DNA of 64,000 bases from Calothrix anomala FACHB-343 (GTDB lineage Bacteria; Cyanobacteriota; Cyanobacteriia; Cyanobacteriales; Nostocaceae): assembly GCF_014696435.1 (NCBI RefSeq), contig NZ_JACJQG010000015.1:91537-155536 (forward strand), read 5' to 3'. Shown in pieces: positions 59,257 to 60,423 of this stretch. Both the position numbers and the translations under genes were made by a program. Within the stretch, counting starts at the first letter, position 1. Each line of letters begins with the position of its first letter. The notes under the pieces are model-generated. The model did not search any database and was not told the origin of the DNA. It worked only from the letters and a program-made list of their open reading frames with translations.

Positions 59257-59649
59257 AATTTTTTGGAGATATGGAAAAACTAGATTGTATATTGCTTGTC
59301 CGGGTTTGTTTAGGTGGAAATCGCTCCCGAATGCGATCGGCGCAAATAATACCCTAAACTCATTTTCAATATTCTGCTAGGTAGCTGCCCCAATGTTTGC
59401 ATCCCTTAAATATGGCGATGCTTGCTGATTGCAAACTGCAATTGGACAACTTGACCTTTGGGCATTGTCTCTAAAGTATGGCAATGCTCTCAAGAAAGCT
59501 ACAAGTGTCCGCGAAAACATCACGATTTTTGGTATGATAGCTCGCTTTGCGCTAAAGTTACAGATTTTAACTAGGTGTTAAGCTTTGACTGTCTTGGCTA
59601 TCTGCTTTCACCGATATCTAGATAATTCTTTTGCCAAAGTTTTAACTAA

Positions 59650-60050
59650 CACTGCGGGAAGTCCCCAGGTTCCGTGAACTACACCTGGGGATGAAAGCAG
59701 GGCAACAACGAAGACCGCAACGAACTAAATCAACCGCTCTTTGATGTGTGAGGCGGGTGTCTTTTGGAATTGCCAAATATTTTATCTGATTGCTTTACTG
59801 AGAATTACATATGGAAACGCAGCGATAAATATAAGAGCAGAAGGTATCAGAATGCTTGCATTGAGCGAAGCCGAAATGCTAAAGGCGGAAGGTGACGCTC
59901 CTTCGTCGCTAACGCTTCGCTATCAGCCGTCTCTGCTGTAGGAGGGGAGGTAAGACCGAAACTAGGGCGAAAGTCCAAGTTACGGCACTCGCCTGTGAGT
60001 ACAGAAGCTCAGGGTTAGCCAACGCGAAACCCTGAGTAGTTCACGAAAAA
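59650..60050 (+). ncRNA. Structured RNA resembling HEARO/omega RNA, without a nuclease gene
   Basis: Directly visible pairings: a 9-bp stem TCCCCAGGT (59662-59670) with ACCTGGGGA (59683-59691); its loop sequence CGTGAAC (59673-59679) is perfectly complementary to GTTCACG at 60039-60045, giving a 360-nt long-range pseudoknot; a 9-bp stem CTCAGGGTT (60008-60016) with AACCCTGAG (60028-60036) just before that partner; and AGCAGA/TCTGCT (59836-59841 with 59932-59937). The phrases GGGCAACAACGAAGACCGC and GGGCGAAAGTCCAAG remind me of HEARO, the RNA of IscB-type elements, but this is from memory. No IscB ORF lies downstream. An AGCGAAGC...GCTTCGCT repeat (59864-59921) seems inserted in the variable stem. 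Confidence 0.55.
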
Positions 60051-60168
60051 ATCTTTTCCATTAATTTGAATATATATCTCTCAAAGTATTTTAAAAAAAA
60101 GCAATAAATAGGGTATCTTATTCATCAGGCGAAAATTTGTTATTGCCACAATTGGTGAAAGAGGAGTT

Positions 60169-60423
60169 ATGAAAACAAAAATCTTCGGTTTGGCTCTCGC
60201 TTTAAGTCTGGCTACATTTCTCGGTGCTTGTGAAGGCGGTGGTGAACCTGGTGGTACTGGTAGCAGTCCAGCCAGCAGCCCAGCTGCTACAGGCGAACCC
60301 AGTGACTCTGGTTCTACTAAAACCCCTGCTTCTCCTGCTGCTACCACTTCTCCTGGTGGTACTACTAAAACTTCTCCTGCTGCTAGCCCTGCTGCTAGCC
60401 CTGCTGCTACAAAGTCACCCTAA
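60169..60423 (+). CDS. Small Ala/Pro/Ser/Thr-rich lipoprotein
   Basis: An 84-residue exported protein. The signal sequence MKTKIFGLALALSLATFLGAC ends in a clear lipobox (LGAC, Cys21). The mature part has no fold signature: Gly-rich (EGGGEPGGTG), then repeats of SPAA and TKT. It is probably a lipid-anchored surface or periplasmic spacer protein. A strong GAGGAG ribosome-binding site lies 4-9 nt upstream. The repetitive codons (CCTGCTGCTAG) make length change likely. Downstream lies a strong intrinsic terminator at 60567. Confidence 0.85.
   Translation: MKTKIFGLALALSLATFLGACEGGGEPGGTGSSPASSPAATGEPSDSGSTKTPASPAATTSPGGTTKTSPAASPAASPAATKSP

Follow-up and report, generated by a model that had tools for sequence, protein, structure and literature searches.

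What kind of element forms the structured stretch around positions 59650 to 60050 of the window, by which we mean the whole 64,000 nt of Calothrix anomala FACHB-343 DNA that was analysed? A preliminary description had proposed a solitary omega RNA of the HEARO type, lacking its IscB nuclease, in a gene-free gap and with a long-range pseudoknot between its two hairpins. We consider it very probable (about 94%) that the structured stretch, 399 nt from 59646 to 60044 on the plus strand, is a core-deleted transposon of the IS200/IS605 family, TnpB-only (IS1341) type. It is a common cyanobacterial jumping gene in which most of the RNA-guided nuclease (TnpB) is gone while both ends remain, a relic of an ordinary kind and not an IscB-type RNA. 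From left to right it contains a left-end hairpin and leader, a frameshifted 3' stub of tnpB with a short dispersed repeat, an omega-RNA (reRNA) scaffold and the right-end hairpin leading into GTTCAC. Of the earlier proposal, the broad idea of an omega RNA without its nuclease, including the option of a relic, survived; the family (HEARO/IscB) and the pseudoknot did not, and the nuclease is TnpB. The main value of the analysis lies in this correction: a striking hairpin pair with a long-range match marks the left and right termini of a TnpB transposon in decay.

Reading the sequence confirmed the two perfect 9-bp hairpins at 59662-59691 (arms TCCCCAGGT/ACCTGGGGA) and 60008-60036 (arms CTCAGGGTT/AACCCTGAG), as well as the previously reported complementary heptamers CGTGAAC at 59673-59679 and GTTCACG at 60039-60045. 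Folding of the 401 nt yielded -131.9 kcal/mol compared to a shuffle mean of -115.4 kcal/mol (z -2.7), and 0 of 100 shuffles were better. The weight given to the heptamer match as unlikely by chance found no support, since exact 7-nt complements spaced by 200 nt or more turned up in 58% of 2000 dinucleotide shuffles, with a mean of 1.1 per shuffle versus 4 in the real sequence, though for this loop and tail pair, as picked afterwards, the chance was about 0.002 (2000 dinucleotide shuffles). For exact 7-nt complements at any distance the shuffle mean was 4.25 versus 12 observed, with the two hairpins counted in.

The relatives argue against the pairing. Their left ends diverge from one another, and a pattern search gave candidates in 64 of 80 tnpB loci (the best 80 of 273) and no candidate in 16 of the 80; several of the 64 are, judged by eye, probably wrong (L107, L120, L121, L130, L132, L142, L147 and L148). 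The loop sequence GTGAAC occurred in one of these 64 candidates, L126, where it lies inside an apparent insert. At the other side, 80 of 80 loci (best 80 of 273) had a right end made of a hairpin, whose stem counted at least 7 pairs when one mismatch was tolerated, and TAGTTCAC, with variable DNA beyond; as the right end had been sought as GTTCAC after a short motif, this count is conditioned on the hexamer, and TA preceded it in 80 of 80 (again the best 80 of 273). Base 60045, the last G of GTTCACG, is consequently flanking DNA outside the element. A long-range pseudoknot of left-end loop and right-end terminus was therefore rejected as not conserved, and the match, rare as picked yet not kept in relatives, is best read as chance. 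An alternative pairing of the right-end TCAC with alignment columns 70-73 (GTGA 18, ATGA 16, TTGA 3, GCGA 2 and ACGA 2 of 41) was uninformative because TCAC is invariant.

Ends, tnpB stub and RNA scaffold

Using positions 59640-60055 as query against 59 genomes, the own genome included, matches were found in 35, some of them through a dispersed repeat (about 59889-59926) only. The strongest DNA matches lay mostly over 59811-59856 and 59923-60011, and translated matches corresponded to the C-terminus of TnpB, a protein of about 408 aa. The TnpB proteins of the relatives carry the Pfam domains OrfB_IS605, Cas12f1-like_TNB and HTH_OrfB_IS605 and reached 351.8 bits with the NCBIfam model guided_TnpB (cut-off 100); with the narrower IS200_TnpB model TnpB scored 400.4, below the cut-off of 425. 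In the own genome 56 matches to the TnpB query were observed. The best lay on contig C55, which is the query itself (100%), on C53 (89%) and on C93 (85%); of these three only the C53 copy contains a stop, a single one. The stub in the window is among the weaker matches.

The left-end stem-loop (59652-59700, plus strand) combines an outer stem CTGC/GCAG (59652-59655 and 59697-59700) with the inner 9-bp hairpin, an architecture similar to that of the relatives' left ends. It is followed by the 5' leader ahead of tnpB (59701-59806, plus strand), which starts with most of GGGCAACAACGAAGAC and ends near the deletion breakpoint. The phrase GGGCAACAACGAAGAC, cited in the preliminary description, lies at the start of this leader. 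Homology of the left half was derived by aligning it in MAFFT to 13 left ends of relatives and to the C53 copy of the own genome, all picked by hand, in which the window tracked the others from 59640 to about 59806; by this alignment the left-end hairpin and leader of this cyanobacterial tnpB family are present in the element. Upstream of tnpB in the relatives, a short spacer separates TTAAC from a G+C-rich hairpin, and then comes the leader with blocks, for example GGGC..C.ACGA, ATCAACCG, GCCAAATATTTT and CTTTACT, that vary among relatives. Written as a pattern, a leader motif was present in 34 of the 64 candidate left ends only, so the left half is less uniform than the right half.

Ahead of the left end TTAAC was seen by eye in 11 of 14 relatives (not seen in L015, L020 and L031). 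The pattern which yielded the 64 candidates itself required TTAA and gives no independent support for a TTAA flank. In the window the corresponding left flanking target-site or TAM-like motif is TTTTAA (59640-59645, plus strand), assigned from the TTAAC of the relatives and from the unoccupied counterpart of the C93 insertion described below.

Past about 59806, an approximate breakpoint, the sequence continues directly with the zinc-finger end of tnpB. Compared to the C93 copy, ~1053 nt (about 1.05 kb) of the ORF are missing, and the final portion of the leader is gone as well. The remaining 3' stub, from the zinc-finger end to the C-terminus and frameshifted (59810-60024, plus strand), was recognized by DNA alignment over 59811-59893 and 59923-60008, by a protein match over 59908-60024 and by translation. 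The protein match (C52:151444-151560) shows 74% identity to TnpB residues 366-404 and contains one TAG stop; the 41-aa stub by itself gave no Pfam match. The term gene-free consequently holds for intact genes only. With this part of the ORF gone and a stop in the stub, no intact tnpB gene is present in the element, and as tnpB is broken the element is unable to make its own nuclease. Both IS605-type ends are present while most of tnpB is missing, which amounts to core loss with the ends kept. Global alignments scattered across the deleted core and were used for the right half only.

Within the stub, a gap in the alignments to long copies marks a short dispersed genomic repeat (59894-59922, plus strand) with other copies in the own and in related genomes. 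Pieces similar to this repeat were also noticed in the tnpB gene of locus L012 and, by eye, in the left end of L117.

The tnpB 3' end of the element doubles as omega-RNA scaffold. This TnpB omega-RNA (reRNA) scaffold spans 59926-60044 on the plus strand and includes the right-end hairpin and the terminal TAGTTCAC. In an alignment of 41 sequences, the window and 40 relatives, its consensus fold comprised 26 pairs, 11 of which were changed on both sides, and the window retained 26 of 26. Two of the 80 loci were without anchor; from 74 distinct rows the 40 relatives were taken by eye for diversity. We are aware of the fact that the consensus structure was derived from the same alignment, so that the following shuffle and shift controls lean towards structure: 96.1% of the cells paired compared to 86.5% in shuffles, 11 pairs were changed on both sides compared to 7.2, and the covariation score was 0.286 compared to 0.121, with 0 of 500 shuffles reaching any of these values, and shifting the partner columns by 1 to 3 lowered the covariation score to below 0.08. 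One of five covariation measures, the further pair types, set the alignment less clearly apart (29 versus 25.4, reached by 29 of 500 shuffles). On the basis of these comparisons 59926-60044 is predicted to be a real conserved RNA fold of the TnpB omega RNA, or reRNA.

By analogy, it corresponds to the reRNA region of ISDra2, for which an RNA of about 150 nt is described that matches the 3' end of tnpB plus the right end and takes its guide from about 16 nt of adjoining DNA (PMC8612924). Both systems would share an RNA region in which the 3' end of tnpB is continued by the right end and the adjoining DNA serves as would-be guide; in contrast to ISDra2, the element has no intact tnpB in cis, and its RNA is a predicted one. 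Following the same source and the right-end boundary, the flanking DNA at 60045-60064 (plus strand) would provide the guide if an RNA were made. Both hairpins are transposon ends of the kind that a TnpA would recognize, the 3' hairpin being also part of the putative TnpB guide RNA.

Insertion site and history

The boundaries of the element were obtained from the C93 sister copy in the own genome. Its joined flanks matched genome G001 over query bases 1-300 at 94%, with TTTTAA/GTGATG at the empty site and TTTTAACTAATTCGG...GTTCAC/GTGATG at the filled one (the slash indicates the junction). For this sister copy the clean empty site shows that integration took place 3' of a short motif and left no duplicated target. 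Applying the resulting boundary rule, TTAA/C...GTTCAC/, the window element extends from 59646 to 60044, behind TTTTAA. Its ends match those of the relatives, and none of the 8 other genomes of the genus carries it at the orthologous site.

At the window locus, G001 (L053) has flanks of 92-95% identity, matching up to TTTTAA and resuming from GAAAAAATC. In between it carries about 190 nt, ending in CTACTTAA, in place of the element, and the stretch missing in the window reaches from TTAA to TTAA. As G001 holds this DNA where the window holds the element, the empty site of the element itself is not clean, and a deletion would have accompanied or followed the insertion. A weakly similar stretch was seen by eye at the same place in G005 and G007, from which we infer that the about 190 nt were ancestral and disappeared from the lineage of the window, perhaps by a deletion reaching from one TTAA to the other.

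Mobility of TnpB-only elements is generally ascribed to Y1 transposases supplied in trans. Nine Y1 transposase matches were found in the own genome, two of them fragments of 25 residues, and none of the nine was tied to this tnpB family. The element would have entered next to a TTAA through single-strand 'peel and paste' transposition catalysed by such a Y1 enzyme in trans; it would also have lost its core and taken up the small repeat, and decay would be ongoing. Most likely it is a decaying relic and has no present function, its ends and RNA scaffold still looking usable in trans.

Rival readings

Loading of the RNA in trans by the paralogous TnpB proteins of C55 and C93 is possible, judging from the sequences. 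That the element is a working stand-alone guide is nevertheless improbable. This reading would require that the tnpB-less element is transcribed from an outside promoter, that the intact reRNA is loaded by the C55 or C93 TnpB, that the element-less allele is cut and that the relic is kept by homing; if true, a gutted transposon holds its place through its relatives' nuclease. The complete set of consensus pairs agrees with it, as do the identity to L110 at 83 of 85 bases within 59923-60007, the TnpB genes without stops on C55 and C93, and the presence of CTTAAGAAAAAATCTTTTCCATT at the orthologous place of G001, where a TTAA adjoins a match to the would-be guide. However, no sigma-70-like promoter was found in 59500-60200, and the leader is truncated ahead of tnpB. 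Moreover, a scan of the own genome for TTAA followed by 14 bases of the guide, 18 bases in all, gave 0 places with 0 or 1 mismatch and 5 places with 2 mismatches, one of them the element's own junction, compared to 1 for the reversed control pattern. In a modest way the locus could serve to examine, in a natural setting, whether IS605 relics that lack tnpB but have an intact reRNA scaffold can work in trans with paralogous TnpB.

Far less probable is the solitary HEARO, or IscB omega RNA, of the preliminary description. A structured element without an adjoining nuclease gene would fit it, and the own genome has both HEARO RNAs (RF02033) and RRXRR (IscB-type) genes, the latter with three matches, on C71, C57 and C80, and none on the window's contig C52. 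Nevertheless, the Rfam HEARO model did not match the element at E up to 10 in 59400-60170. The model works on this genome, with 9 matches, 7 over the cut-off, all of them elsewhere. In addition, the right half and the leader of the element align with tnpB elements, and the proposed pseudoknot is not conserved. What HEARO and the scaffold found here have in common is the role of a guide RNA of a transposon nuclease.

Six of the seven HEAROs over the cut-off lie on contigs without RRXRR match (L041, L042, L043, L045, L046 and L047 on C90, C54, C110, C9, C53 and C13, respectively), hence HEAROs with no IscB-type gene close by do occur in the own genome, outside the window; the seventh, L044, adjoins the RRXRR gene on C71. 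Other Rfam families were without match in the window at gathering score, or in 59400-60170 at E up to 10. A tRNA or tmRNA reading was searched for and rejected.

A small ORF at 60169-60423, by eye lipoprotein-like with a low-complexity tail, starts about 125 nt past the element, and the DNA around its start was matched in 9 of 9 genus genomes, the own included. A host small regulatory RNA upstream of this ORF is highly unlikely, because the absence of the element there in the other 8 genomes means that it is no conserved regulator of the ORF, and the same absence rules out a conserved host RNA in general.

Known systems and other shortened copies

The core-deleted transposon agrees with TnpB-only (IS1341-type) members of IS200/IS605 in its subterminal hairpins at both ends and in a tnpB gene whose 3' end passes into the right end; TTAA-type insertion without target duplication was seen for the sister copy. 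It differs from them by the loss of about 1.05 kb of tnpB and by the small repeat that interrupts the remainder.

Core-deleted IS605 elements have already been described as palindrome-associated transposable elements (PATEs) of Haloquadratum (PMC3119063). According to that report, PATEs are transposase-free with near-terminal palindromes, some originated from IS605-type elements by core loss, and other small repeats insert into them; all of these traits are shared by the element. In contrast to the PATEs as depicted there (PMC3119063), it is cyanobacterial, still contains the RNA scaffold and a piece of tnpB, and is single-copy at full length, with one full-length match in the own genome rather than a multi-copy family. 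A full-text literature search found nothing on this particular element, which does not prove absence.

Shortened copies were also noticed in other loci. L018 and L027 consist of the right part of the element only. For L027 (reverse complement) these are the last ~110 nt before the terminus, with the omega-RNA part and right end, starting near the start of the consensus fold and terminating in TTGTTCAC instead of TAGTTCAC. In another genome, L014 represents a second core-deleted tnpB element of 314 nt from TTAAC to GTTCAC (1310-1623, reverse complement), in which a left-end piece is joined directly to the tnpB 3' end and the right end.
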